This document shows positions 2,241-22,381 of a DNA stretch of 64,000 nucleotides, one piece after another. A model generated the notes under the pieces. It saw only the letters and a list, made by a program, of their open reading frames with translations, ran no database searches and was not told where the DNA came from. Source of the DNA: Basidiobolus meristosporus CBS 931.73 (lineage: Eukaryota; Basidiobolomycota; Basidiobolomycetes; Basidiobolales; Basidiobolaceae). The stretch lies in NCBI GenBank assembly GCA_002104905.1, contig MCFE01000034.1, positions 124,001 to 188,000 of the forward strand, in the 5' to 3' direction. Numbering within the stretch: position 1 is the stretch's first letter; each line of letters begins with the position of its first letter. The position numbers and the translations under genes were made by a program.

Positions 2241-4568
2241 ATGGACACGAATATTAAAGAGGCGGCACTCCTCCGTTTAGCAGACCTGCTGAAACATCCA
2301 GATGACCTAAACACAAAGGTACCTGCGCTTCGAAAGAAATTTGCACTCGAAAAAGCTACCATCGATGCCCAGCTTAAAAGCGACGTGCAAACCCAGTTCG
2401 ACTCGGTCAAGGTCGGCCTGGAAAAGTTACTCTCGGGGCAAAATCAAATGGACCTGGTCAAGGTCGATCTAAAATCCATAGACCAAATATGCCTGGACTC
2501 CCAAAACGAAATCAAAAATTACCCAAGAATCCAGAAGGTAAATTGGGGTTTTCTACTAAGCATCATCTGGCACCATTAGCTGGACCGCCAATTACTTAGC
2601 TTGCTTACTTCATTCAAGATCTCCCAAACGCACCAGAACTTCATCGCCACCAAAGAATTTGTGGAGCGGTTTACGGAATTCACAACCCATCTGGACCAAG
2701 CACAACAGCTACTCGAGGAGGATATGAAAAACACGAGGGAGCCAGGGAAAAACTTGCTGAAGATTCACTACGAGCTATATCGCCTAGAGCAATTCAGAGA
2801 CATCACCATGAACCAGGCCAAAAAAGCCTCCATGGATGTGCTTGCTACACTAAGGAAGTTCTTTTTGAAATTGGAAGACGTTGCTTCGCAATTTTCGGCG
2901 TACCTTTGGCAATTGGCCCGAGAGATATACTTCCTGGCGAGCTCTAACCAGGGGGTTGTTTTGGTTTACATAGCGAAGATTGTCGAGTCTGAGGAAAAGG
3001 CCGACCAGCTGGCCTTGACAGCCGAAAAGGCAAGGACGGCAAATGCAAACCTGCGTTCCACCAGCAGCAAGTGGAAACTGGCTGAGGGTAGTTCCAGAGT
3101 TATCAAGGGGTATCGACGCCGGTTGTTTGAAATCTTCGACGAAGTGATAGCAGCCCGATTCACTGAGCATCTACAGCAGTATCAGAATGACCTAAGCGGA
3201 ACGCTGTCCGGACTGCAGTTTATTTTTGATGATTTGACGATGATCTACGAGTTCCTTGAGCCTCGTTTCCCTAAACATTACAACCTGTTCTCATACTTTG
3301 TCAAGAGCTATCATCGACATATTCATGAGCTGCTAACGAGAATGATCCAAGATAATGTTGATGCTGGTTCGGTGTTGAAATTGTTACGCTGGGTGCGTGA
3401 TTACTATATCGATATGAACCAGCAACTCGGGGTTGCTGAGGACCTGCTAGAGCCAAGACTGCTTGAAGGGCACGAGAGTGCGCTCGTGGAAGAATACCTT
3501 GGCTTGACCAGGGACAAATTATCCGAATGGATCCGGAATCTAATGAAGACCGAGACGGGCGAGTTTGTCAGCAGGGCTAAGCCCCCTGAGGGTGGTGCTA
3601 ACGAGAAGTACGGAATGTCTGCGGCAGTGATCATGTTCCAGATGATTAACCAGCAGATCGATATTGTCATTGACTCGAACCACCGAGATCTGCTGTGTAG
3701 CGTTATCACTGAATGCACCAACGCCATTAAAGACGCACAATTCCAGTGGATTGATGTGGTTCGCTCCGAGCTCAAGAAACAGCTTGACCAGCCAAACGAT
3801 GTTCCCGAAGGATTGGTTGATTATTTGATAGCGCTGTGCAATGACCAGATTCGAAGCATCGAATACACCGAAGCAATTATCCAAAGACTGGAGCTGCTGG
3901 TGGCCGGAAAGCACAAAGAGCAAATCGACATGAACCTGAGTTCAGTGATGGAGGGGTTCATCACAGTGTCGCAGTCCGCATCCAAGGCGCTGCTTGATAT
4001 TGTTTTCCATGACCTGAAGCCAATCTTCGCGCAGACCTTCTGCTCGAGCTGGTACAAGGAGGACCTGATGCTTCCAGTGATTGCCACCTTGAGGGATTAC
4101 TGCCACGATTTCAAGACCCACATGCAGCAATATCCGTTTACAAAAATTATGGACCACCTACTGGACCGGTTCATCCTTTCCTACTTGGATGCATTGAGAA
4201 ACAAAAATGCCAAGCTCGTCTTGCCTGACGCCATCAACAAGATGGAAGGGGACATCAAGGTCACCTACGAATTCTTCCTTTCATACATACCACAGGACCA
4301 GGTGGAGAAGCAGATGGACGTGCTACTTAAGGTGCAGACGATTGTTGGAAGCTCATCAAGCATGGTTTATCTCGATTTCTACAGTGTTCGTAAACACTAC
4401 CCAGACATCCCTATCGGTTTGGTGGAAACCATCCTGAACAAGAGGGAGGATGTTGATCGTTCACAAACCAAAGAGCTGATGGATACCATCCGGGTTAAAG
4501 CAAAGGAGCAGGCGATGACCAACGAAGGTGGAGCCAGTAGTCTGTTCAGCAAGCTCACCTTGTATTAA
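2241..4568 (+). CDS. SEC6: Exocyst complex subunit Sec6 (EXOC3)
   Basis: Subunit of the octameric exocyst that tethers secretory vesicles to the plasma membrane at growth sites. Two exons, 2241-2537 and 2580-4568, join in phase across a 42-nt intron (GTAAAT...TTAG), giving 761 aa against about 750-800 for the family. The N-terminal 100 residues are helical and coiled-coil rich. The body carries Sec6 signatures: VLKLLRWVRDYY, LLEGHESALVEEYLGLTRDKLSEWI, an ETGEFVSR..PPE segment followed by AAVIMFQMINQQ, and GLVDYLIALCNDQ. The ATG at 2241 is the first in frame and opens the conserved N-terminus. Nothing suggests truncation. Confidence 0.93.
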
Positions 4569-9136: not shown

Positions 9137-10639
9137 CTAGTTCTTTCTGAGCGCGATGCTACGTAGAGCATTTCTTATTTCAATTGCTCTCTTATAGGCC
9201 TTGTGACCAGCTCCGTTACCGCTATAGTCCTTTGTGTCATAATTGCTCCCACCACCATTGCCACCATAGCTTTCTTTGTGATCACCTCCATAGTCCTTGG
9301 TATCATAGTTATTGCCACCGCTATTTCCACCGTAATTCTTTTCGTGATCGCCTCCATAGTCCTTGGTATCATAGCTATCACCGCTTCCGCCACCATTTCC
9401 CCCGTAACTCTCTTCATGATCACCTTCATAGTCCTTGGTATCATAGCTATCGCCATTTCCACCGTAATTCTTTTCGTGATCGCCTCCATAGTCCTTGGTA
9501 TCATAGCTATCACCGCTCCCGCCACCATTTCCGCTGTAACTCTCTTCATGGTCACCTCCATAGTCCTTGGTATCATAGCTATTGCCACCGCCATTACCGC
9601 CATGGCTTTCTTCACGATCGCCTCCATAGTCCTTGGTATCATAGCTATCACCGCTTCCGCCACCATTTCCCCCGTAACTCTCCTCACGATCGCCTCCATA
9701 GTCCTTGATATCATAGCTATCACCGCTCCCGCCACCATTTCCCCCGTAACTCTCTTCATGGTCACCTACATAGTCCTTGGTATCATAGCTATTGCCATCG
9801 CCATTACCGCCATGGCTTTCTTCACGATCGCCTCCATAGTCCTTGGTATCATAGCTATCACCGCTTCCGCCACCATTTCCCCCGTAACTCTCTTCATGGT
9901 CACCTACATAGTCCTTGGTATCATAGCTATTGCCATCGCCATTACCGCCATGGCTTTCTTCACGATCGCCTCCATAGTCCTTGGTATCATAGCTATCACC
10001 GCTCCCGCCACCATTTCCCCCGTAACTCTCTTCATGGTCACCTACATAGTCCTTGGTATCATAGCTATCACCGCTCCCGCCACCATTTCCCCCGTAACTC
10101 TCCTCATGATCACCTTCATAGTCTTTGGTATCATAGCTATCACCGCTTCCGCCACCATTTCCCCCGTAACTCTCTTCACGATCGCCTCCATAGTCCTTGG
10201 TATCATAGCTATCGCCATTTCCACCACCATTTCCACCATAGTCTTCCTCATGATCACCCTCGTACTCATTGGTGTCATAGCTATCACCACTTCCGCCACC
10301 ATTTCCACCATAGCTTTCCTCATGGCTACCTTCATAGTCTTTTGTATCGTAACTGTCACCGCCGCCGCCACCACCTCCGCTCCCGCCATAGCTATCTTCG
10401 TGATCACCTTCGTACTCTGTTGTATCATAGCTGTCACCTGATCCTCCGCCATTACCTCCATAGTCGCCAGTATCGTAAGATCCACCACTGCCATTTCCTT
10501 CATATTCTGTGTCACCTCCATGGCCTCCTCCGCCAGAGTAATCCTTCACATCATAGCTGCCGGCACCAGAGTAGTCACCGGTGGGTAGTGCAGAGACAGA
10601 GGCAACATATAGAAGTGCTGTGATGAGGGTTGCTTTCAT
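9137..10639 (-). CDS. Secreted Gly/Asp/Tyr-rich repeat protein, array gene 1 (500 aa)
   Basis: Intronless. It has a clear signal peptide (hydrophobic core LITALLYVASVSA, cleavage expected before LPTGDYSG). The body consists of about 20 degenerate repeats of roughly 18-24 residues built on SYDTKDYGGDHEESYGG plus NGGGSGD. It ends GHKAYKR followed by the 16-residue tail AIEIRNALRSIALRKN. No cysteine and no transmembrane segment after the signal. It is the longest family member, and the central repeats are nearly identical at DNA level, consistent with expansion by slippage or unequal exchange. The first ~150 codons and ~200 bp of promoter are nearly identical to array gene 2. Function unknown; a secreted matrix or adhesive protein, or a precursor of the C-terminal peptide, are the options I favour. 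Confidence 0.88.
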   Translation of the reverse strand: MKATLITALLYVASVSALPTGDYSGAGSYDVKDYSGGGGHGGDTEYEGNGSGGSYDTGDYGGNGGGSGDSYDTTEYEGDHEDSYGGSGGGGGGGDSYDTKDYEGSHEESYGGNGGGSGDSYDTNEYEGDHEEDYGGNGGGNGDSYDTKDYGGDREESYGGNGGGSGDSYDTKDYEGDHEESYGGNGGGSGDSYDTKDYVGDHEESYGGNGGGSGDSYDTKDYGGDREESHGGNGDGNSYDTKDYVGDHEESYGGNGGGSGDSYDTKDYGGDREESHGGNGDGNSYDTKDYVGDHEESYGGNGGGSGDSYDIKDYGGDREESYGGNGGGSGDSYDTKDYGGDREESHGGNGGGNSYDTKDYGGDHEESYSGNGGGSGDSYDTKDYGGDHEKNYGGNGDSYDTKDYEGDHEESYGGNGGGSGDSYDTKDYGGDHEKNYGGNSGGNNYDTKDYGGDHKESYGGNGGGSNYDTKDYSGNGAGHKAYKRAIEIRNALRSIALRKN

Positions 10640-10836
10640 TTTGATGCAATTGCTTTGTTCTAAGGGAGTGAATGCGGTAGAATGATATGAGATGAGTATA
10701 GTTGATACGGGTGAAGGGGGAGCGGGCTTTTATATCGTTAAATTGGCTAAGATCGATTGTCAGGGCCATTTCCCAGCTGAAATTGTTGTAAGGTGCACAG
10801 TAATGGTGGCATGCAGGTGGATCGTTGATTTGCAGC
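10210..10836. repeat. Near-identical duplicated block (copy at 11996-12622)
   Basis: The 5' coding part and promoter of array gene 1 match those of gene 2 at a constant offset of 1,786 bp with only a few substitutions. Identity stops abruptly within the repeat body and again just above the ATGCAGGTG element. Confidence 0.8.
10727..10821 (-). promoter_or_regulatory. Promoter of array gene 1: TATA box plus ATGCAGGTG element
   Basis: TATAAAAG at 10734-10727, 88 bp above the ATG. GCAGGTGG begins at 10813, 174 bp above the ATG and 79 bp beyond the TATA box, embedded in ATGCAGGTGGATC. Confidence 0.6.
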
Positions 10837-11035
10837 AGCACGCTCCGTCAGTTGCATCTGGTAAATGAACCCTGTCGTGATACAGCGATATTTTATTGAC
10901 TTCAAAAAATTTACAGGCGCACGTAGAATACATTGAGCATCATCAAAGTATACATAGGCGAGTAGCAGCGTGAGCATATATAGATGGGCAGTTAAATGAG
11001 TATATTTAGTTAGAGATCAGATAGTGAAAACTCAA

Positions 11036-11041
11036 TTTATT
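11036..11041 (-). terminator. Poly(A) signal, array gene 2
   Basis: AATAAA on the minus strand, about 137 bp after the stop of array gene 2. Confidence 0.5.
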
Positions 11042-11177
11042 GAAATGCATTTTGCAGGTATAGATGGAGATCTATAGGGGCATTTAGTATTCATGAGGCT
11101 AAGCCGGTAATGTCATGTATGTATTAGTTAATAAAATAATGAGGTAGATTCAACCATCTTTCATGATGCTAGTTATC

Positions 11178-12425
11178 TTAGACCTTTCCAACTACAATCT
11201 TTCGAAGGGCATTCCTGACCTCAATTGCTCTCTTATAACTTTTGTGACCTGATGCGTAATCCTTGGTATCGTAGCTGTTCCCACCACCATTTCCACCATA
11301 GTTTTCCTCGTGATCACCCTCATAGTCTTTGGTATCATAGCTGTTACCGCCTCCATTGCCACCATAGTTCTTTCCGTGATTCTTGCAGTGCTTCGACTTG
11401 TGCTTACCGCCGTAGCTATCTTCATGATTACCACCATGGCCGCCTCCATTCCCTCCGTAACTATCTTCATGATCGCCTCCGTAGTCCTTGGTATCATAGC
11501 TATTACCACTTCCACCGCCGTTGCCTTGATAAGTATCCTCGTGGTCACCCTCATAGTCTTTTGTATCGTAGCTGTCACCACCACCATTCCCACCATAGTT
11601 CTCATCATGATCGCCTTCATAATCGCCACTACTATAGCTGTCTTCCTGTTCTCCCTCGTAGCCTTTAGTACCATAGCTATTGTCGCCTCCTCCGCCACTA
11701 CCACCATAGTTATCGTCGTGGTCACCCTCATAGTCTTTGGTGTCGTATCTATCACTACCACCGCCACTACCGCCATAATCTTCGGTAGCATAACTGTTGT
11801 CACCCCCACCGTTACCACCATAGTTCTCTTCATGATCACCCTCGTACTCATTGGTGTCATAGCTATCACTGCCGCCATTACCGCCATAACTCTCCTCATG
11901 ATCGCCTCCATAGTCCTTGGTATCATAGCTATCGCCACCACCATTTCCCCCGTAACTCTCTTCATGATCACCTTCATAGTCCTTGGTATCATAGCTATCG
12001 CCATTTCCACCACCATTTCCACCATAGTCTTCCTCATGATCACCCTCGTACTCATTGGTGTCATAGCTATCACCACTTCCGCCACCATTTCCACCATAGC
12101 TTTCCTCATGGCTACCTTCATAGTCTTTTGTATCGTAACTGTCACCGCCGCCGCCACCACCTCCGCTCCCGCCATAGCTATCTTCGTGATCACCTTCGTA
12201 CTCTGTTGTATCATAGCTGTCACCTGATCCTCCGCCATTACCTCCATAGTCGCCAGTATCGTAAGATCCACCACTGCCATTTCCTTCATATTCTGTGTCA
12301 CCTCCATGGCCTCCTCCGCCAGAGTAATCCTTCACATCATAGCTGCCGGCACCAGAGTAGTCACCGGTGGGTAGTGCAGAGACAGAGGCAACATATAGAA
12401 GTGCTGTGATGAGGGTTGCTTTCAT
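11178..12425 (-). CDS. Secreted Gly/Asp/Tyr-rich repeat protein, array gene 2 (415 aa)
   Basis: Same plan as gene 1. The signal peptide and first ~150 residues are identical, after which the repeats diverge and become more irregular (SGGGSDRYDTKDYEGDHDD, GYEGEQEDSYSSGDY). It uniquely contains a basic His/Lys-rich insertion around residues 325-345, GGKHKSKHCKNHGKNYGG, which carries the only cysteine I see in the family. That could allow disulphide linkage or metal binding. The tail after the Lys-Arg site is AIEVRNALRKIVVGKV. Identity to gene 1 over the 5' half but not the 3' half points to recent partial duplication or gene conversion. Confidence 0.88.
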   Translation of the reverse strand: MKATLITALLYVASVSALPTGDYSGAGSYDVKDYSGGGGHGGDTEYEGNGSGGSYDTGDYGGNGGGSGDSYDTTEYEGDHEDSYGGSGGGGGGGDSYDTKDYEGSHEESYGGNGGGSGDSYDTNEYEGDHEEDYGGNGGGNGDSYDTKDYEGDHEESYGGNGGGDSYDTKDYGGDHEESYGGNGGSDSYDTNEYEGDHEENYGGNGGGDNSYATEDYGGSGGGSDRYDTKDYEGDHDDNYGGSGGGGDNSYGTKGYEGEQEDSYSSGDYEGDHDENYGGNGGGDSYDTKDYEGDHEDTYQGNGGGSGNSYDTKDYGGDHEDSYGGNGGGHGGNHEDSYGGKHKSKHCKNHGKNYGGNGGGNSYDTKDYEGDHEENYGGNGGGNSYDTKDYASGHKSYKRAIEVRNALRKIVVGKV

Positions 12426-12622
12426 TTTGATGCAATTGCTTTGTTCTAAGGGAGTGAATGCGGTAGAATGATATGAGATGAGTATAGTTGATATGGGTGA
12501 AGGGGGAGCGGGCTTTTATATCGTTAAATTGGCTAAGATCGATTGTCAGGGCCATTTCCCAGCTGAAATTGTTGTAAGGTGCACAGTAATGGTGGCATGC
12601 AGGTGGATCATTGATTTGCAGT
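11996..12622. repeat. Near-identical duplicated block (copy at 10210-10836)
   Basis: Partner of the 10210-10836 block. Differences seen in the promoter part are single substitutions, for example GATACGGG versus GATATGGG. Confidence 0.8.
12513..12607 (-). promoter_or_regulatory. Promoter of array gene 2: TATA box plus ATGCAGGTG element
   Basis: TATAAAAG at 12520-12513 and GCAGGTGG from 12599, 174 bp above the ATG. The sequence is nearly identical to the gene 1 promoter. Confidence 0.6.
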
Positions 12623-13324
12623 AGCACGCTCTTATCCAGGGATTTAAGTCTAAGCTTGTATTCTTCTTTATGCAAGGGTATAATACTCATGATCTACCCG
12701 GAGGGAATTCTATTATTTCCATAATTCAATTATATCTACCTGCTAAATGGATCGTAGCTTTACCTACTTTTCAGTATTGCTGTGATCACAATGTGGACGA
12801 ACGTCAGGAGGACATGACAACGATATGCAAATTACTTGACTTTAAAGGATTCATATGTAAAGATTGCTTAATCCAGGTGTATTTGGGCTAACTTTAGGAG
12901 ATGCTTGGAATTTGCTGTATTGCGATAAATTGATAAAGATATTTGGATGTATTTTTCCACCCCCACAGTTGCATCTTTCTTATCGTAACTACTGATGCCC
13001 ATGAAGTGTACCCACATTGCTACATCACATCCTGATCCACAGCTAGTTACGTATAAACTGTAAATGCTACAATTCTCTTCCTATTCTTTGACGGAGAGTT
13101 ATTTTTCAAAAATACCGAAAATAGCCGCGACTGGAATGTCCATCAACGTTGTCAACTTGTGTTGGGAATCTTATGGTCAGTTCAGTGATCGTTTTCTTCA
13201 TATCTCTCATCATTACCTCCATTTTACGCTATGGAGTAGAATGCTAAGCATCTGGCTAACTATACACACATCAATAAATTAGGTTCAATGTCATTATAAA
13301 TACTACGAGTACGACGGAGGCCAT
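12623..13324. other. Intergenic region between array genes 2 and 3
   Basis: Non-repetitive AT-rich spacer. Short ORFs of 72-73 codons (12670-12891 and 13064-13282) show no family features and are not supported as genes. Confidence 0.5.
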
Positions 13325-13330
13325 TTTATT
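13325..13330 (-). terminator. Poly(A) signal, array gene 3
   Basis: AATAAA on the minus strand, about 195 bp beyond the stop of array gene 3. Confidence 0.5.
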
Positions 13331-13523
13331 GACTTGTATTTTGGGTGCAATCTTAATTTCGGTAGAGTGGAAAAGGGATGCGTCTGAGTTGGAAGTGCTT
13401 TGCCCACGGAGTTTTGAAAGGTGCTAACGCGGGAAAAAAAGAATAGTACGGGTTTGGGATAGACGGGCTGGAATAACACTAGCCAACCGAGGTATACTCA
13501 ACAGACAAGGCCAATTTACCATT

Positions 13524-14345
13524 TCAAACCTTCCTTACAGCAATGCTCCTTAGAGCCTCCCTGAATTGAACTGATCTTTTGTAGCTCTTGTGGCCAGCTC
13601 CATTACCACCGTAGTCTTGTGTGTCGTAGCCATTGCCGCTGCCACTTCCACTGCCACCATTTCCACCGTAGCTGTTATCGTGATCAGCTCCATAATCCTT
13701 GGAATCATAACTGTCACCACCGTTGCCATCATTGCCACCATTGCCACCATTGCCATTATCATATTCGCCCCCATGATCACCACCTTTTCCGCCATATCTC
13801 TTGTCATGATCACCTCCATAGACCTTGGTGTCGTAGCTGGTACCACTACCACCACCATTCCCTTCATAGCTCTCGTCATAGTCTCTTTCATGACCACCAC
13901 CATTTCCACCATAGCTTTCGTCATGATCACCCCCATAGTCTTTGGTATCGTAGCTGTTGCCACTACCACCACCACCACCATTTCCGCCATAGCTATCACT
14001 GTGATCACTTTCATACTCAGTTGTATCATAACTGTTACCGCCTCCACTTCCCCCACCCCCATTACCACCGTAACTTTCCTCATGGTCACCTTCATAGTCT
14101 CCGCTGTTGTAGCTGTCGCCTGATCCTCCACCGCTACCTCCATGATTGCCACTATCATAAGATCCTTCATCATTGTCATTACTATGCCCATTACCTTCGT
14201 AGTCTTTGCTACCACCATATCCTCCGCCACCAGAGTAATCTTTCACATCATAACTTCCAGCGCCACCATTGCCAGAATAGTCACCAGAGGGTAATGCCGA
14301 GACAGAGGCGATGTAGAGAAGGGCTACGATGAGGGCTACTTTCAT
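13524..14345 (-). CDS. Secreted Gly/Asp/Tyr-rich repeat protein, array gene 3 (273 aa)
   Basis: Signal peptide MKVALIVALLYIASVSA, then LPSGDYSGNGGAGSYDVKDYSGGGG. The body has fewer, more varied repeats than genes 1-2 (HERDYDESYEGNGGGSGTSYD; GNGGNGGNDGNGGD). A second internal Lys-Arg (HDKRYGGKGG) occurs here and not in its closest relatives. The C-terminal peptide after HKSYKR is SVQFREALRSIAVRKV. Its promoter belongs to the same class as array gene 6, with shared sequence extending to about 200 bp upstream. Confidence 0.88.
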   Translation of the reverse strand: MKVALIVALLYIASVSALPSGDYSGNGGAGSYDVKDYSGGGGYGGSKDYEGNGHSNDNDEGSYDSGNHGGSGGGSGDSYNSGDYEGDHEESYGGNGGGGSGGGNSYDTTEYESDHSDSYGGNGGGGGSGNSYDTKDYGGDHDESYGGNGGGHERDYDESYEGNGGGSGTSYDTKVYGGDHDKRYGGKGGDHGGEYDNGNGGNGGNDGNGGDSYDSKDYGADHDNSYGGNGGSGSGSGNGYDTQDYGGNGAGHKSYKRSVQFREALRSIAVRKV

Positions 14346-14429
14346 TTTGTGGTTGTTGCTTTTGTCCTTGAGTTGCGCCTCGAATAGAACGATGCCAGAG
14401 GAATGTGTTTGATGAGAATAGAGATTGCA

Positions 14430-14525
14430 TATTTATACCACCACCACACCATGAATAATCAATGTGGTCAATTCCTTGCTCAATAGCACATGTAGGGTGT
14501 ATACTGACGGGGATATGCAGGTGGA
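14430..14525 (-). promoter_or_regulatory. Promoter of array gene 3: TATA box plus ATGCAGGTG element
   Basis: TATAAATA at 14437-14430. GCAGGTGG begins at 14517, 172 bp above the ATG and 80 bp beyond the TATA box. Confidence 0.6.
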
Positions 14526-14903
14526 TCATTGCATTACAATCACTTTTGGTTCGCTACTTGTGTAGGGAAAGATCGTGATGATAACTATACTTGAGTAAGG
14601 AGATCCGTACATTCGGGTATATCCAGCCCTTGTGAAATCGTCTTGTATAGCACCAAGGGATTGGTATAACAGATTGCTACATCATTTGGAGTAGTGTGTG
14701 ATTAGTAAGAATGTTTCGCTATGAATCAAGTGAATCAACTGGTATTCTCTTGCTCCTCATACATCAGAGATGCCATACGGATAATTAGTCATCGAAAATA
14801 GCATTACAATGCGCATCATGAAGGAGTCGTATGGGTATATTTATATTTACTAGATCATGCTCAGATCGTTGGTGATGATGGTTAAGCGTATGATGAGGGT
14901 GAC

Positions 14904-14909
14904 TTTATT
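14904..14909 (-). terminator. Poly(A) signal, array gene 4
   Basis: AATAAA (in CCCAATAAAG) on the minus strand, about 195 bp beyond the stop. The surrounding 3' flank is homologous to those of genes 5-8. Confidence 0.55.
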
Positions 14910-15102
14910 GGGATATACTTTGGGCACGATGGATTGGCTGGTGAAATGTATTAAGAATGCGTCTAAGCTGCAAATGCTTTTCTAACATCAGTTCGTAGGG
15001 TGACAGCCTGTGAAGTAATGAACAGTATGGCTATGAGTCAAATACACAACACGAAGACAGCATGAGCCGGAGCGTAGTCACGGGGTGGGGCCAGCAGTCA
15101 TT

Positions 15103-15993
15103 TCAGGCCTTCCTTATAGCAATGCTCCTTAGAGCCTCCCTGAATTGAACTGATCTTTTGTAGCTCTTGTGGCCAGCTCCATTACCACCGTAGTCTTGTG
15201 TGTCGTAGCCATTGCCGCTGCCACTTCCACTGCCACCATTTCCACCGTAGCTGTTATCGTGATCAGCTCCATAATCCTTGGAATCATAACTGTCACCACC
15301 GTTGCCATCATTGCCACCATTACCATTATCATATTCTCCCCCATGATCACCACCCTTTGCGCCATAGCTCTTGTCATGATCACCGCCATAGTCCTTGGAG
15401 TCATATCTGTCGCCACCACCATTACCACCATGGCTGGCATCGTAATCACCCTCATGGCCACCTCCATTTCCGCCGTAGCTCTCCTCATAGTCGCCACCTT
15501 GGCCTCCTCCATCTCCACCATAGCTTTCGTCATGATCACCCCCATAGTCTTTGGTATCGTAGCTGTTGCCACTACCACCACCACCACCACCACCACCACC
15601 ACCATTTCCGCCATAGCTATTACTGAGATCACCTTTGTATTCAGTTGTATCGTAACTGTCACCGCCACTACTGCCACCACCACCACCACCACCACTTGCC
15701 CCACCTCCACTACCACCGTAACTTTCCTCATGGTCACCTTCATAGTCTCCGCTGTTGTAGCTGTCGCCTGATCCTCCACCGCTACCTCCATGATTGCCAC
15801 TATCATAAGATCCTTCGTCATTGTCATTACCATGCCCATTCCCTTCGTAGTCTTTGCTACCACCATATCCTCCGCCACCAGAGTAATCTTTCACATCATA
15901 ACTCCCAGTGCCACCATTGCCAGAATAGTCACCAGAGGGTAATGCTGAGACAGAGGCGATGTAGAGAAGGGCTGCGATGAGGGCTACTTTCAT
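15103..15993 (-). CDS. Secreted Gly/Asp/Tyr-rich repeat protein, array gene 4 (296 aa)
   Basis: Signal peptide MKVALIAALLYIASVSA. The repeat body includes two long pure-glycine stretches encoded by GGT/GGC triplet runs (around 15572-15605 and 15670-15700), which are likely length-variable. It has no odd residues and no intron. The tail after HKSYKR is SVQFREALRSIAIRKA, identical to genes 5 and 6. Its promoter is the same class as genes 5 and 7. The upstream sequence to about 16760 is almost identical to that at 17485-18255. Confidence 0.88.
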   Translation of the reverse strand: MKVALIAALLYIASVSALPSGDYSGNGGTGSYDVKDYSGGGGYGGSKDYEGNGHGNDNDEGSYDSGNHGGSGGGSGDSYNSGDYEGDHEESYGGSGGGASGGGGGGGSSGGDSYDTTEYKGDLSNSYGGNGGGGGGGGGGSGNSYDTKDYGGDHDESYGGDGGGQGGDYEESYGGNGGGHEGDYDASHGGNGGGDRYDSKDYGGDHDKSYGAKGGDHGGEYDNGNGGNDGNGGDSYDSKDYGADHDNSYGGNGGSGSGSGNGYDTQDYGGNGAGHKSYKRSVQFREALRSIAIRKA

Positions 15994-16079
15994 TTTGTGG
16001 TTGTTGCTTTTGTCCTTGAGTTGTGCCTCGAATAGAACAATACGGGAGGAATATGCTTGAATGGGGTAGAATGCCGCGC

Positions 16080-16176
16080 TATTTATACGTCCTCAAACGG
16101 GTCAAGACCACTTGATACATCTACATTTTGCCTAACGTAGGTATAGGGCTCATGTTGATGTTGTGATGCAGGTGTA
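16080..16176 (-). promoter_or_regulatory. Promoter of array gene 4: TATA box plus ATGCAGGTG element
   Basis: TATAAATA at 16087-16080. GCAGGTG begins at 16168, 175 bp above the ATG and 81 bp beyond the TATA box. Confidence 0.6.
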
Positions 16177-16510
16177 CCATAGGATTGCATCTGCTTAAAC
16201 CCCATCATTTTCATCCGGTTAATCGTCCTTCGGATGGCCGGATTCTGCACTAGATTCCTGTTGCTAGGTCGCATTGTGCCCGATCTATGTTGCTGTAGTC
16301 GATCGTGGTAAGGTACAGGCTTCTGTATTGGATCAAGCCTCGGAGGTGAAAAAGGCTCTACCAAGATCAGACTACTTTCCCACATTCTTGGTGATTATGT
16401 AGGGCCGATATGCGATGCTATGGTGTCGATTTGGGAGACCTACAGGCTTAGAGCCACCACACTGCAGTACAGAAACACACTGAAATGATTTGGGGTGCGA
16501 TGAGAGTAGC

Positions 16511-16516
16511 TTTATT
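16511..16516 (-). terminator. Poly(A) signal, array gene 5
   Basis: AATAAA on the minus strand, about 195 bp after the stop of array gene 5. Confidence 0.55.
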
Positions 16517-16708
16517 GGGATGCATTTTGGGTGCAATTGATCGCCTGGTAAAATGGAATAGCAATGAATCTAAGCTGAGAATGCTCTTCTAACATCAATT
16601 CGTAGGGTGATAGCATGTGAAGTAGTGAATAGTATGCTATGAGTCAAATACGCAACACGAAGACAGCATGAGCCGGAGCGTAGTCGCGGGGTGGAGCCAG
16701 CAGTCATT

Positions 16709-17488
16709 TCAGGCCTTCCTTATAGCAATGCTCCTTAGAGCCTCCCTGAATTGAACTGATCTTTTGTAGCTCTTGTGGCCAGCTCCATTACCACCATAGT
16801 CTTGTGTGTCGTAGCCGCTACCGCTGCCACTTCCACTGCCACCATTTCCACCGTAGCTTTCATCGTGGTCAGCTCCATAAACCTTGGAATCATAACTGTC
16901 ACCACCGTTGCCATCATTGCCACCATTGCCATTATCATATTCGCCTCCATGATCACCACCATTTCCGCCATAGTCCTTGGAGTCATATCTGTCGCCACCA
17001 CCATTGCCACCATGACTGCCATTGTAATCACCCTCATGGCCACTACCATTTCCTTCATAGCTCTCCTCGTAGTCTTCTTCACGTCCTCCACTTCCGTCAT
17101 AGCTCTTCTTGTGGTCGCCACCATTTCCGCCATAGCTATCACCGTGACCACTTTCATACTCAGTTGTATCATAACTATCACTGCCACCAGTTCCTCCACC
17201 CCCATTACCACCGTAACTTTCCTCATGGTCACCTTCATAGTCTCCGCTGTTGTAGCTGTCGCCTGATCCTCCACCGCTACCTCCATGATTGCCACTATCA
17301 TAAGATCCTTCGTCATTGTCATTACCATGCCCATTCCCTTCGTAGTCTTTGCTACCACCATGTCCTCCGCCACCAGAGTAATCTTTCACATCATAACTTC
17401 CAGCGCCACCATTGCCAGAATAGTCACCAGAGGGTAATGCTGAGACAGAGGCGATGTAGAGAAGGGCTGCGATGAGGGCTACTTTCAT
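16709..17488 (-). CDS. Secreted Gly/Asp/Tyr-rich repeat protein, array gene 5 (259 aa)
   Basis: Shortest member. Signal peptide as in gene 4. Its body contains a segment poor in Gly and rich in charge (DHKKSYDGSGGREEDYEESYEGNG) that is shared with array gene 7 but not with gene 6. This shows mosaic relationships inside the array. The 3' 300 bp and the C-terminal peptide SVQFREALRSIAIRKA are shared with gene 6. No intron, no cysteine. Confidence 0.88.
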   Translation of the reverse strand: MKVALIAALLYIASVSALPSGDYSGNGGAGSYDVKDYSGGGGHGGSKDYEGNGHGNDNDEGSYDSGNHGGSGGGSGDSYNSGDYEGDHEESYGGNGGGGTGGSDSYDTTEYESGHGDSYGGNGGDHKKSYDGSGGREEDYEESYEGNGSGHEGDYNGSHGGNGGGDRYDSKDYGGNGGDHGGEYDNGNGGNDGNGGDSYDSKVYGADHDESYGGNGGSGSGSGSGYDTQDYGGNGAGHKSYKRSVQFREALRSIAIRKA

Positions 17489-17574
17489 TTTGTGGTTGTT
17501 GCTTTTGTCCTTGAGTTGTGCCTCGAATAGAACAATACGGGAGGAATATGCTTGAATGGGGTAGAATGCCGCGC

Positions 17575-17671
17575 TATTTATACGTCCTCAAACGGGTCAA
17601 GACCACTTGATACATCTACATTTTGCCTAACGTAGGTATAGGGCTCATGTTGATGTTGTGATGCAGGTGTA
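17575..17671 (-). promoter_or_regulatory. Promoter of array gene 5: TATA box plus ATGCAGGTG element
   Basis: TATAAATA at 17582-17575. GCAGGTG begins at 17663, 175 bp above the ATG. Confidence 0.6.
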
Positions 17672-18005
17672 CCATAGGATTGCATCTGCTTAAACCCCAT
17701 CATTTTCATCCGGCTAATCGTCCTTCGGATGGTCGGATTCTGCACTAGATTCCTGTTGCTAGGTCGCATTGTGCCCGATCTATGTTGCTGTAGTCGATCG
17801 TGGTAAGGTACAGGCTTCTGTATTGGATCAAGCCTCGGAGGTGAAAAAGGCTCTACCAAGATCAGACTACTTTCCCACATTCTTGGTGATTATGTAGGGC
17901 CGATATGCGATGCTATGGTGTCGATTTGGGAGACCTACAGGCTTAGAGCCACCACACTGCAGTACAGAAACACACTGAAATGATTTGGGGTGCGATGAGA
18001 GTAGC

Positions 18006-18011
18006 TTTATT
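18006..18011 (-). terminator. Poly(A) signal, array gene 6
   Basis: AATAAA on the minus strand, about 195 bp after the stop of array gene 6. Confidence 0.55.
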
Positions 18012-18203
18012 GGGATGCATTTTGGGTGCAATTGATCGCCTGGTAAAATGGAATAGCAATGAATCTAAGCTGAGAATGCTCTTCTAACATCAATTCGTAG
18101 GGTGATAGCATGTGAAGTAGTGAATAGTATGCTATGAGTCAAATACGCAACACGAAGACAGCATGAGCCGGAGCGTAGTCGCGGGGTGGAGCCAGCAGTC
18201 ATT

Positions 18204-18989
18204 TCAGGCCTTCCTTATAGCAATGCTCCTTAGAGCCTCCCTGAATTGAACTGATCTTTTGTAGCTCTTGTGGCCAGCTCCATTACCACCATAGTCTTGT
18301 GTGTCGTAGCCGCTACCGCTGCCACTTCCACTGCCACCATTTCCACCGTAGCTTTCATCGTGGTCAGCTCCATAAACCTTGGAATCATAACTGTCACCAC
18401 CATTGCCACCATTGCCACCATTGCCATTATCATATTCGCCTCCATGATCACCGCCATTACCACCATGACTGTAATCGTAATCACCCTCATGGCCACCTCC
18501 ATTTCCACCATAGCTCTCCTCATAGTCGCCACCTTGGCCTCCTCCGCTTCCACCATAGCTTTCATCATGATCACCCCCATAGTCTTTGGTATCGAAGCTG
18601 TTGCCACTACCACCACCACCACCACTTCCGCCATAGCCATCACTGTGATCACTTTCATACTCAGTTGTATCATAACTGTCACTACCACCAGTTCCTCCAC
18701 CCCCATTACCACCGTAACTTTCCTCATGGTCACCTTTATAGTCTCCGCTGTTGTAGCTGTCGCCTGATCCTCCACCGCTACCTCCATGATTGCCACTATC
18801 ATAAGATCCTTCGTCATTGTCATTACCATGCCCATTACCTTCGTAGTCTTTGCTACCACCATATCCTCCGCCACCAGAGTAATCTTTCACATCATAACTT
18901 CCAGCGCCACCATTGCCAGAATAGTCACCAGAGGGTAATGCCGAGACAGAGGCGATGTAGAGAAGGGCTGCGATGAGGGCTACTTTCAT
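18204..18989 (-). CDS. Secreted Gly/Asp/Tyr-rich repeat protein, array gene 6 (261 aa)
   Basis: Signal peptide as in gene 4. The middle of the body (GNSFDTKDYGGDHDESYGGSGGG) resembles genes 3 and 4, and one repeat tyrosine is replaced by phenylalanine. Its 3' end matches gene 5 while its promoter matches gene 3, so it looks like a recombinant of two subtypes. The C-terminal peptide is SVQFREALRSIAIRKA. Confidence 0.88.
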   Translation of the reverse strand: MKVALIAALLYIASVSALPSGDYSGNGGAGSYDVKDYSGGGGYGGSKDYEGNGHGNDNDEGSYDSGNHGGSGGGSGDSYNSGDYKGDHEESYGGNGGGGTGGSDSYDTTEYESDHSDGYGGSGGGGGSGNSFDTKDYGGDHDESYGGSGGGQGGDYEESYGGNGGGHEGDYDYSHGGNGGDHGGEYDNGNGGNGGNGGDSYDSKVYGADHDESYGGNGGSGSGSGSGYDTQDYGGNGAGHKSYKRSVQFREALRSIAIRKA

Positions 18990-19073
18990 TTTGTGGTTGT
19001 TGCTTTTGTCCTTGAGTTGCGCCTCGAATAGAACGATGCCTGAGGAATGTGTTTGATGAGAATAGAGATTGCA

Positions 19074-19206
19074 TATTTATACCACCACCACACCATGAAT
19101 AATCAATGTGGTCAATTCCTTGCTCAATAGCACATGTAGGGTGTATACTGACGGGGATACGCAGGTGGACTATTGCATTACGATAACATATACTCCACCA
19201 CCTGCA
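19074..19206 (-). promoter_or_regulatory. Promoter of array gene 6: TATA box plus paired GCAGGTG elements
   Basis: TATAAATA at 19081-19074. GCAGGTGG begins at 19161 (172 bp above the ATG), and an inverted copy CCACCTGC follows at about 19197-19204. This gives an inverted pair unique to this copy. Confidence 0.55.
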
Positions 19207-19526
19207 TGTGGGATTTAGGCGGGCAACTAGAATCGGGGCAGATATATTTAAATCAAGTATAAATGAGCAATAATTATAGGTTGGCATGATGAGATTTCCT
19301 TTACAGATCACTACATTTTCGGGAGGAGTGGATCAGAATAATAAGCAAACGATTTATATGTTTTTGGTGCTTCTCGCTCACTATTCCTTTATGGCTGCAC
19401 GTTGATAACAAGTCCTTGCCATAGAACTGCATTATAGGTAGTAAAGAAGGTATCTGGGTATATCCACATACACAAGATTATGCTCAGATCGTCAGTACTA
19501 ATAGCTTAGTGTACGATGAAGGTGAC
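19207..19526. other. Intergenic spacer between array genes 6 and 7
   Basis: No ORF or repeat of note beyond the 3' flank of array gene 7. Confidence 0.5.
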
Positions 19527-19532
19527 TTTATT
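19527..19532 (-). terminator. Poly(A) signal, array gene 7
   Basis: AATAAA on the minus strand, about 195 bp after the stop of array gene 7. Confidence 0.55.
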
Positions 19533-19726
19533 GGGATGTATTTTAGGCGCGACGCATTGTCTGGTAAAATGGATTAGGAATACGATCAAGCTCCAAGTGC
19601 TCTTCTAGTATTACTTTGATGGATGGTAATATGGGTAATAGATAATAGAATGGAGTTGTGCCAATCGAGCTAGATCCACACTCCACGCACTCAGACTCAC
19701 TGAAGAGACATGGTCAATAGGCTATT

Positions 19727-20602
19727 TCAGACCTTTCTTGTAGCAATGCTCCTTAGAGCCTCCCTGAATTGAACTGATCTTTTGTAGCTCTTGTGGCCAG
19801 CTCCATTACCACCATAGTCTTGTGTGTCGTAGCCGCTGCCGCTGCCACTTCCACTGCTACCATTTCCACCGTAGCTTTCATCGTGGTCAGCTCCATAAAC
19901 CTTGGAATCATAACTGTCACCACCATTGCCACCATTGCCACCATTGCCATTATCATATTCGCCTCCATGATCACCACCATTTCCACCATAGCCCTTGTCA
20001 TGATCATCTCCATAGTCCTTGGAGTCATAGCTGTCGCCACCACCATTGCCACCATGACTGCCATTGTAATCACCCTCATGGCCACCACCATTTCCGCCAT
20101 AGCCATCATCATGTTCACCTCCATAGTCCATGGTGTCGTAGCCGCTACCACTACCACCACCATTTCCTTCATAGCTCTCCTCGTAGTCTTCTTCACGTCC
20201 TCCACTTCCGTCATAGCTCTTCTTGTGGTCGCCACCATTTCCGCCATAGCTATCACCGTGATCACTTTCATACTCGGTTGTATCATAACTATCACTGCCA
20301 CCAGTTCCTCCACCCCCATTACCACCGTAACTTTCCTCATGGTCACCTTCATAGTCTCCGCTGTTGTAGCTGTCGCCTGATCCTCCACCGTTACCTCCAT
20401 GGTTACCAGTATCATAAGACCCTTCATCATTGTCATTACCATGTCCATTCCCTTCGTAGTCTTTGCTACCACCATGTCCTCCGCCACCAGAGTAATCTTT
20501 CACATCATAACTTCCAGCGCCACCATTGCCAGAATAGTCACCAGAGGGTAATGCTGAGACAGAGGCGATGTAGAGAAGGGCTGCGATGAGGGCTACTTTC
20601 AT
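19727..20602 (-). CDS. Secreted Gly/Asp/Tyr-rich repeat protein, array gene 7 (291 aa)
   Basis: Signal peptide as in gene 4. It contains the charged DHKKSYDGSGGREEDYEESY block of gene 5 plus extra repeats (SGYDTMDYGGEHDDGYGG, SYDSKDYGDDHDKGYGG). The C-terminal peptide is SVQFREALRSIATRKV, with two substitutions relative to genes 4-6. The promoter is nearly identical to those of genes 4 and 5 until about 20904, where homology ends sharply. Confidence 0.88.
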   Translation of the reverse strand: MKVALIAALLYIASVSALPSGDYSGNGGAGSYDVKDYSGGGGHGGSKDYEGNGHGNDNDEGSYDTGNHGGNGGGSGDSYNSGDYEGDHEESYGGNGGGGTGGSDSYDTTEYESDHGDSYGGNGGDHKKSYDGSGGREEDYEESYEGNGGGSGSGYDTMDYGGEHDDGYGGNGGGHEGDYNGSHGGNGGGDSYDSKDYGDDHDKGYGGNGGDHGGEYDNGNGGNGGNGGDSYDSKVYGADHDESYGGNGSSGSGSGSGYDTQDYGGNGAGHKSYKRSVQFREALRSIATRKV

Positions 20603-20688
20603 TTTGTGGTTGTTGCTTTTGTCCTTGAGTTGTGCCTCGAATAGAACAATACGGGAGGAATATGCTTGAATGGGGTAGAATGCCGCGC

Positions 20689-20785
20689 TATTTATACGTC
20701 CTCAAACGGGTCAAGACCACTTGATACATCTACATTTTGCCTAACGTAGGTATAGGGCTCATGTTGATGTTGTGATGCAGGTGTA
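20689..20785 (-). promoter_or_regulatory. Promoter of array gene 7: TATA box plus ATGCAGGTG element
   Basis: TATAAATA at 20696-20689. GCAGGTG begins at 20777, 175 bp above the ATG and 81 bp beyond the TATA box. Confidence 0.6.
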
Positions 20786-21172
20786 CCATAGGATTGCATC
20801 TGCTTAAACCCCATCATTTTCATCCGGCTAATCGTCCTTCGGATGGTCGGATTCTGCACTAGATTCCTGTTGCTAGGTCGCATTGTGCCCGATCTATGTT
20901 GCTGTGGGTGGATCACATTAGTACATTAGCTTACATCTCTTTACCTGCATATAGTGGATGGTTTTATATGTGGGTGAATGATATTTTCATGCTCTGCCCC
21001 ATACGAGCATGCTATCTTGGATATATATTTTGCGCACCTAAATGATGATCCAGAAAAATGCTGGTTGCTATATGGTTTGATCTACAACTTTGATTACCTT
21101 AGGAATTCCTCATATGAGAATATTCCTAAGTTTACACCAGTGATCTGGGACATGAAGTAAAATGAAGATTGC

Positions 21173-21178
21173 TTTATT
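21173..21178 (-). terminator. Poly(A) signal, array gene 8
   Basis: AATAAA on the minus strand, about 175 bp after the stop of array gene 8. Confidence 0.5.
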
Positions 21179-21352
21179 GGTTTGCATATTGAGCTCAGGC
21201 TTGGGCCTAAATATACATCGTGTTCTTGAAAGCAGGTTGGTATTGTTATTCTAGTGTTGGGTGATGTAATGAATTGATGGGGCTTTGAATATATCGCGCC
21301 TCAGAGCTCCTCATACTGTGACTAGAGCAAGATGATGGAACTGGAATGTATC

Positions 21353-22381
21353 TCAGTTCCCTCGGAGTGTTACGCCTCGCAAGATATTTCTAACTTGAAC
21401 TGATCTCTTGTAACTCTTGTGACCAGATCCATTGCCACTGTAATCTTTTGTATCGTAACCGCTTCCGCCCCCACCATTTCTGCCGTAATTTCCCTCATGC
21501 TCACCCTCATGGCCGCTACCATTATAGGCCTTAATGTCGTAGCTATTACCGCTACCACCACCGCCATTGCCGCCATAGCTCTCTTCATAATCACCTCCGT
21601 GACCACCACCACCGTTACCGCCATAGCTTTCCTCATTGTCGCCTCCGTGACCACCACCATTACCGCCATAGCTTTCCTCATAGTCGCCATCATGACCACC
21701 GCCATTTCCGCCGTAGCTATCATCGTGATCACCTCCATAATCTCCAGTATCGTAGCTGTCGCCTCCACCGCCTCCACCATTACCGCCATAGCTCTCTTCA
21801 TGATCGCCTCCATGGCCACCGCCGTTACCTCCGTATTCCTCGGTGTCATAGCTACTTCTACTGCCGCCACCTCCGTTACCACCATAGCTCTCTTCGTAGT
21901 CTCCTCCATGGCCACCACCATTACCGCCGTAGCTCTCTTCATGGTCACCTCCATAATCATTGGTGCCATAGCTATCACCACCTCCGTTACCACCATAGCT
22001 GTCGTCGTAATCTCCACCATCGCCACCGCCATTTCCACCGTAGCTCTCTTCATGGCCTCCTTCATAATCACCTTCGCCACCACCACCATTACCACCGTAG
22101 CCCTCTTCATGATCGCCTCCATAGTCCTTAGTATCATAGCTATTACCATTACCGCCACCACCATTTCCACCATAATTGTTTCCATTGGAATCATAGCCGC
22201 CGCCTCCACCGCCCCCATTTCCTCCATGATTACCAGTATCGTAGGAGCCACCGTGGCCATTTCCTCCGCCAGAATAGTCTTTGACGTCGTAACCTCCAGC
22301 CCCATTTCCGGAATGATCACCAGTGGGTAGGGCAGAGATGGAAGCGATGTAAAGCAGAGTTGTCATAAGTGTCACCTTCAT
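21353..22381 (-). CDS. Secreted Gly/Asp/Tyr-rich repeat protein, array gene 8 (342 aa)
   Basis: Most diverged member and first in transcriptional order. Signal peptide MKVTLMTTLLYIASISA, then LPTGDHSGNGAGGYDVKDYSGGG. The repeats are shorter and dominated by GGDYEESYGGNGGGHGG, so the protein is richer in His-Gly and poorer in SYDTKDY. The C-terminal peptide after HKSYKR is SVQVRNILRGVTLRGN. The Lys-Arg site and hydrophobic spacing are kept although the repeats differ, which argues that the tail is under selection independently of the body. Confidence 0.88.
   Translation of the reverse strand: MKVTLMTTLLYIASISALPTGDHSGNGAGGYDVKDYSGGGNGHGGSYDTGNHGGNGGGGGGGYDSNGNNYGGNGGGGNGNSYDTKDYGGDHEEGYGGNGGGGEGDYEGGHEESYGGNGGGDGGDYDDSYGGNGGGDSYGTNDYGGDHEESYGGNGGGHGGDYEESYGGNGGGGSRSSYDTEEYGGNGGGHGGDHEESYGGNGGGGGGDSYDTGDYGGDHDDSYGGNGGGHDGDYEESYGGNGGGHGGDNEESYGGNGGGGHGGDYEESYGGNGGGGSGNSYDIKAYNGSGHEGEHEGNYGRNGGGGSGYDTKDYSGNGSGHKSYKRSVQVRNILRGVTLRGN

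Follow-up and report, generated by a model that had tools for sequence, protein, structure and literature searches.

The array of genes described here raises the question of why a family of secreted-looking fungal proteins carries, behind a Lys-Arg pair, a basic C-terminal tail of fixed length. The window, that is, the whole stretch of 64,000 nucleotides of Basidiobolus meristosporus CBS 931.73 DNA that was analysed, contains eight uninterrupted minus-strand open reading frames (ORFs) within 9137-22381, whose products of 259-500 residues look secreted. A preliminary description proposed that Kex2 could release a conserved, cationic and amphipathic 16-mer from the end of each of these disordered proteins, or alternatively that the tail could anchor the protein. 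In this study, the tail was compared among all copies of the gene, with tail-less proteins of the same genome, and with known substrates of Kex2. The genes and the C-terminal features are as follows.

9137-10639, minus strand: gene 1, 500 aa; tail at 9140-9187, GHKAYKR at 9188-9208
11178-12425, minus strand: gene 2, 415 aa; tail at 11181-11228, GHKSYKR at 11229-11249
13524-14345, minus strand: gene 3, 273 aa; putative signal peptide, acidic Gly/Tyr/Asp repeats, GHKSYKR and tail
13527-13574, minus strand: tail of gene 3, 16 residues, SVQFREALRSIAVRKV; the stop codon is at 13524-13526
13575-13595, minus strand: GHKSYKR motif of gene 3; the Lys-Arg of the candidate Kex2 site is at 13575-13580
15103-15993, minus strand: gene 4, 296 aa; tail at 15106-15153, GHKSYKR at 15154-15174; an AlphaFold2 model was made
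16709-17488, minus strand: gene 5, 259 aa; tail at 16712-16759, GHKSYKR at 16760-16780
18204-18989, minus strand: gene 6, 261 aa; tail at 18207-18254, GHKSYKR at 18255-18275
19727-20602, minus strand: gene 7, 291 aa; tail at 19730-19777, GHKSYKR at 19778-19798
21353-22381, minus strand: gene 8, the most diverged, 342 aa; tail at 21356-21403, GHKSYKR at 21404-21424

The proteins share one order of parts. A signal-like N-terminus is followed by a mature chain that begins LP(S/T)GD(Y/H)S and continues with long Gly/Tyr/Asp/Ser repeats; the last part is GHK(S/A)YKR with 16 residues behind it. Lys-Arg occurs once per protein in seven of the eight window proteins and twice in gene 3, the only one with a second KR (residues 182-183); KK is found once each in genes 5 and 7. 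The net charge of the body is -35 to -87 in the eight window proteins. Between the array genes, a 100-aa ORF (MWESSLILVEPFSPPRLDP...) at 16083-16385 and 17578-17880 repeats with the tandem unit, and nothing in the ORF list marks it as a real gene. Long ORFs in other frames also lie in the repeats (9416-10441, 11424-12227, 21497-22330, and others; I/A/T-rich on the plus strand and M/V/A-rich on the minus strand) and probably arise secondarily from the codons used in the repeats.

The shared C-terminus is not a chance resemblance. All eight window proteins end in GHK(S/A)YKR, exactly 16 residues, and a stop codon, just as the preliminary description had it. A DNA pattern for GHKxYKR with at most one mismatch allowed was found eight times in the window, all eight exact, against 0.06 expected, and 0 of 100 shuffles reached eight. 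The placement given earlier needs adjustment. The interval 13524-13575 covers the stop and the 16 tail codons of gene 3 at 13524-13574, and base 13575 already belongs to Lys-Arg, as the third position of its Arg codon. Likewise, the quoted peptide SVQFREALRSIAIRKA is a real tail and comes from genes 4-6, whereas those coordinates belong to gene 3. Because genes 3-7 are near-copies at this end, with 94-100% of the last 72 nt in common, the eight tails are not independent; there are approximately four tail lineages in the window, represented by genes 1, 2, 4, and 8.

The copies extend beyond the window. In the assembly (89.0 Mb, 1,311 contigs), contig C451 is syntenic with the window and runs in the reverse direction; judged by eye, the genes on either side correspond. 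The shared neighbours include trypsin-like, ankyrin-like, and Sec6 ORFs; the Sec6 gene of the window lies at 2724-4568, and its best database match is from B. meristosporus CBS 931.73 (97%). C451 holds seven further array genes, for a total of 15 copies over two contigs. When the whole assembly was searched with the C-terminus, 16 matches were obtained: the 15 array ends and a weak internal match in one of these 15 genes. A hydrophobic N-terminus with the S(V/I)SA-LP pattern was seen by eye in 15/15 copies. The bodies of the two arrays differ by a silent divergence of 0.23-0.45 and the arrays by copy number (8 versus 7); the pair may go back to an ancient genome duplication or a hybrid instead of being ordinary alleles.

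Conservation within the C-terminus is uneven. All 15 copies have YKR, Arg5, Arg9, and a tail of 16 residues, Leu8 of the tail is kept in 14/15, and no tail among the 15 has a length change or a premature stop. GHK is altered in two of the 15 copies (GNK once, GHR once). The tail of copy c5, SVQFRETPRNTAVRKV, reads RETPRNTA in the middle, hence Pro and Thr inside. The tail had been said to be kept even where the repeats have diverged. Over long distances this did not hold: between deep paralogues (four of the six pairs were run), the identity of the 16-mer was 31-62% and that of the aligned repeats 64-82%, so that the 16-mer was the least conserved segment in these four pairs. Across contigs, tail conservation was equal to or above that of the body in four of five pairs.

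Substitution ratios agree with this unevenness. The pN/pS of GHKxYKR (seven codons) was 0-0.27 in six paralogue pairs and 0-0.30 in five cross-contig pairs, and this motif is among the most constrained stretches. The putative signal peptide gave 0.17-0.28 in the five paralogue pairs with silent differences. For the 16-mer, pN/pS ranged from 0.30 to 1.09 over the six pairs of genes 1, 2, 4, and 8, and was 0.51 when summed over these non-independent pairs. A conserved 16-mer product is not what these comparisons suggest over long distances, where the tail changes faster than GHKxYKR, the signal peptide, and the repeats. Summed over four cross-contig pairs (pair 3-c5 excluded), pN/pS was 0.44 for the tail versus 0.18 for the body. 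The higher value of the tail comes mainly from its few silent changes, 5 of 51 sites versus 318 of 857 in the body, where the count may be inflated by repeat misalignment; for amino-acid-changing sites, tail and body did not differ significantly across contigs in the four pairs (p 0.30).

Neutral evolution of the tail had been named beforehand as one outcome that would speak against a released peptide. Compared with a simple neutral simulation, tail identity was higher (fraction < 0.05) in three of the six deep pairs: 4-8 (0.012 and 0.018 in the two directions), 1-2 (0.008), and 1-4 (0.046). It was not higher in pairs 2-8, 2-4, and 1-8 or in either of the two cross-contig pairs run. The tail is therefore not plainly neutral; selection on it is weak for most of its letters and strict for its length and a few residues.

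The shape of the tail was evaluated by hydrophobic moments. For the 11 distinct tails, 43-92% of shuffles reached the 16-residue moment, and 11-74% reached the highest moment of any 11-residue segment. With angles of 100 and 170 degrees, the moments of every window tail were matched by at least 13% of shuffles. With helical and strand moments within the range of shuffles for all 11 distinct tails, and with Pro inside the c5 tail, the amphipathic reading is not supported and was rejected. The basic charge, described at the same time, is indeed kept (net +3 in 8/8 window proteins); as a cationic peptide, the tail has the charge and lacks an amphipathic arrangement above chance. The description as a disordered precursor also agrees with a secreted-looking protein whose body has no predicted structure: the AlphaFold2 model of gene 4, made with the eight window proteins, had a mean pLDDT of 39.7, and the body blocks, at pLDDT 33-44, showed no structure. 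A helix at 275-295 was predicted through the Lys-Arg and the tail with low confidence (pLDDT about 50). If real, this helix would hinder cleavage.

The genome has the enzyme that such a site calls for. P-domain matches above the cut-off were obtained at several places, and at one locus, the segment before the P domain matches yeast Kex2 (1ot5, E 3e-47). Where a secreted protein is disordered and its Tyr-Lys-Arg exposed, cleavage by kexin is expected. Two features of a kexin-type C-terminal propeptide, a conserved YKR near the C-terminus (15/15) and a kexin in the genome, are present. Passages of PMC2515848 describe Z-Tyr-Lys-Arg-pNA as the substrate with which four fungal Kex2 enzymes were standardised. 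Given this substrate and the kexin of the genome, a cut after Tyr-Lys-Arg is expected if the site is reachable. The idea of Kex2 release therefore survives as to its candidate site, fixed-length cationic tail, and kexin gene, and is not supported as to the 16-mer being a conserved amphipathic product.

What becomes of the tail is best approached through relatives that have none. A search with the array N-terminus found two distant relatives on contig C824 (E 4e-6 and 0.01); by their putative signal peptides, these two sequences are closer to the array than the proteins described next. One of them, C824:163720-164316, ends DDEHGSY, without a tail. The other, C824:162075-163310, ends PHYRKRHNRRAIKSI, which can be divided into PHY-RKR-HNRRAIKSI, that is, Tyr, a basic run, and a short basic tail. 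With other N-termini as queries, a large number of Gly/Tyr-rich proteins that look secreted came to light (C405, C1010, C358, C921, C125, C801, C743, C752, C824). Like the array proteins, they have a signal-like N-terminus, repeats, and a Tyr or YK end; they differ in stopping at YK(Y/F), Y, or DY, and KR plus a 16-residue tail is absent from those read. All ten readable ends of the YK(Y/F) type stop there without a terminal basic pair:

SAYKY: C405 and C1010
SAYKF: C358
TYKF: C921
FYKY: C125, C801, C824:186749, and C743
GKYKY: C752, two copies

These ten are part of the listed genes, and contigs such as C13, C231, C552, C280, and C634 lie outside the count. Some other sequences were also excluded. 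In C304 and C994, the Gly-rich sequence moves to another frame before an end is reached, and the first stop codon in C304 comes after KRRW. A stop interrupts a third C752 copy, of which the second part ends GGKYKY, and a fourth C752 copy is incomplete. C438, with the end PDILIHL, is not rich in Gly and Tyr. Likewise outside the ten are the proteins of the small-repeat array on C824, six of seven ending in (D/E)DY and one in DDYQQF, not in YK(Y/F).

The link between the array and the YK(Y/F) proteins is drawn from short, compositionally biased matches. C405 and the array proteins both have YDVKDYSGG, the latter at their mature N-terminus, and the scores of C405 aligned to this part of genes 1, 4, and 8 (the three tested) were reached by 28, 162, and 0 of 20,000 shuffles, respectively. 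A genome search with the C405 N-terminus gave 64 matches at E <= 0.1, none of them an array gene. This search reached only C824:163170 (E 0.01), and the reverse search with that C824 gene reached C405 (E 0.07). If the link holds, the SYKR/AYKR of the array would match the terminal SAYK(Y/F) in both position and sequence. The residue after YK is aromatic and last in the ten YK(Y/F) ends; in the array it is Arg, which completes a candidate kexin site, and the chain continues. Among the ends read, a terminal basic pair goes with following residues and is missing without them, a correlation over few lineages. This correlation is the main reason to favour a removable extension, which is also suggested by relatives ending where the array has Lys-Arg.

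Removal of the tail by Kex2 as a C-terminal propeptide, leaving a Tyr-type end like that of the tail-less relatives, is the explanation we favour and comes close to being probable. It builds on the architecture and its conservation in 15/15 copies, on the kexin gene, and on the tail-less relatives that end at the corresponding position. The array proteins would enter the secretory pathway via a putative signal peptide ending SVSA or SISA before LP. Kexin would then cut after Tyr-Lys-Arg and release the basic 16-mer, and a Kex1-type carboxypeptidase, the role of which is described in part of PMC9769878, may trim Lys-Arg. The product would be an acidic Gly/Tyr/Asp-rich chain ending ...HK(S/A)Y, a Tyr-type end as in the tail-less relatives. 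During transport, the tail probably pairs with the acidic body by charge, preventing early assembly, and the body, once mature, would serve structurally in the wall, mucilage, or spore adhesive. The spores of this fungus are shot off and stick. If the tail is indeed removed in this way, a charged, disordered, possibly sticky protein would be kept soluble in the cell and activated on export, and a rule would follow whereby a terminal basic pair occurs only where a tail must come off. A wider proposal, which we regard as speculative and rather doubtful, is that Basidiobolus has a large set of secreted Gly/Tyr matrix proteins that carry YK(Y/F) or Y at the very end as a Tyr code. In the array branch, this end would be hidden by a short basic cap, and its removal by kexin would be the switch that allows the acidic Tyr-rich chains to assemble outside the cell. 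No such set is described in the open-licence literature searched.

GHK and Tyr are conserved beyond the needs of Kex2; hence, YKR may be kept for another reason. The tail may stay on the protein as a functional basic C-terminal element that includes YKR, serving as a charge anchor to the acidic wall or to neighbouring bodies, or as an assembly helix. We consider this unlikely. Conservation of GHK and Tyr along with Lys-Arg, the opposite charges of body and tail, and the single low-confidence helix that spans Lys-Arg and the tail all suit such an element, and YK, being present at the end of the tail-less relatives, may have a role of its own. The general expectation that a kexin cuts an exposed Tyr-Lys-Arg speaks against retention, and so does the lack of a terminal basic pair from the ten YK(Y/F) ends read.

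Alternatively, activity would reside in the released 16-mer itself, with the disordered precursor as the carrier of a secreted signal or antimicrobial peptide. The YKR candidate site and the genome kexin serve this alternative equally, and the constancy of length 16, Arg5, and Arg9 (15/15), Leu8 (14/15), and charge, together with the identity above neutral simulation in pairs 4-8, 1-2, and 1-4, is in its favour. Proteins resembling those with Kex2 repeats adjoin a relative in the same genome, and passages of PMC7329392 report B. meristosporus CBS 931.73 as the strain richest in such proteins, with 43. Nonetheless, this remains an unlikely alternative, given that deep paralogues differ most in the 16-mer (four pairs), that its pN/pS summed over six non-independent pairs is 0.51, that pairs 2-8, 2-4, and 1-8 and the two cross-contig pairs run are not above neutral simulation, that none of 11 distinct tails has a significant hydrophobic moment, and that copy c5 carries Pro and Thr inside its tail. 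One peptide per precursor of 259-500 residues would also be a poor yield, which is an argument only. Very improbable is an incidental extension of little function past an older end (e.g., by a lost stop), because although relatives stop at the corresponding place, the 16-mer changes faster over long distances, and c5 bears a proline, the 15 copies show no length change or premature stop, YKR, Arg5, and Arg9 are invariant, and the tail has fewer silent cross-contig differences than the body.

Fungal chloroperoxidase is a folded enzyme, unlike the array proteins. Its Kex2-removed piece is C-terminal, as proposed here for the array (parts of PMC2515848 and PMC9769878). Ywp1 of Candida albicans likewise has a Kex2-removed propeptide on a secreted protein; it differs in that the propeptide is N-terminal and stays bound and in that the protein is an anchored glycoprotein (part of PMC6258133). 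With Kex2-processed repeat proteins (KEPs), the array proteins share a repetitive secreted-looking precursor, with a putative signal peptide, and a candidate dibasic kexin site; they differ in having one conserved site near the C-terminus, not sites between repeats. The KEP pipeline of PMC6339444, as far as its description in part of that source goes, required that cutting at KR/RR (or KK) give four or more fragments, and set the last fragment aside at first, checking it later only for motifs already found. By both rules, as described there, the array layout would escape the pipeline. Assignment of the array proteins to the KEPs was rejected, since with one KR in seven of eight proteins and two in gene 3 they do not yield four fragments, and the repeats of the eight window proteins have no regular dibasic pairs. 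A survey of the PMC6339444 type, on the same partial description, seeks repeated peptides and would overlook a lone kexin peptide or cap at the C-terminus.

The resemblance to other repeat proteins is looser. Tyr/Gly-rich elastic or cross-linked matrix proteins of the resilin type have a Gly-rich chain with regularly spaced Tyr. The array proteins are strongly acidic and have no Pfam match (four scanned), so the likeness is a resemblance only. RTX-like calcium repeats and resilin are candidate likenesses.

Beyond the genome, a full-length search scored 7,996 candidates sharing most words and found none at E <= 0.001, and a C-terminal search gave two candidates, none at E <= 10. As a control, the flanking Sec6 found B. 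meristosporus and B. ranarum proteins in the database. The array genes are probably unannotated there, or masked by low-complexity scoring. Four of the eight window proteins had no Pfam match at E up to 1. The one match in a PDB sequence search (E 4.8) was dismissed as chance. Searches of the open-licence literature on Basidiobolus with Kex2 and with glycine-rich or low-complexity, tyrosine-containing secreted proteins gave no description of the array among the papers listed.

A genome-wide pattern of GxxxYK(Y/F) plus TRR was also tried. It occurred at 174 + 153 places versus 15 + 24 in the reversed control, and was discarded as evidence because it is swamped by one repeated sequence and TRR admits TGG. 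Many of the first 100 hits listed, from both strands, contain the 21-mer GGAATGGACTACAAGTTTTGG (e.g., C1:218208-218228), which is perhaps part of a mobile element.

Several observations concern other proteins of the same genome. Large tandem arrays of small secreted-looking MKYS(I/V)AKLLLVISAALAINATVLERSYDPDYKG... proteins occur at C824:165731-172991 and on C13, C231, C552, C743, and C752. RRKK, GKK, or comparable basic stretches interrupt their Asp/Tyr/Gly repeats. These proteins resemble KEPs and may be the genus-only type S-3. In passages of PMC7329392, seven of the 43 KEPs of B. meristosporus CBS 931.73 are of a Basidiobolus-only type, and the small DDDYDGNGHGRRKKY proteins on C824 may be these. 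Finally, a CAP/SCP-like secreted protein (by eye) at C824:164786-165265 adjoins the distant relatives of the array and ends in a basic site with a short tail, RKRSPKFVGRNNH.
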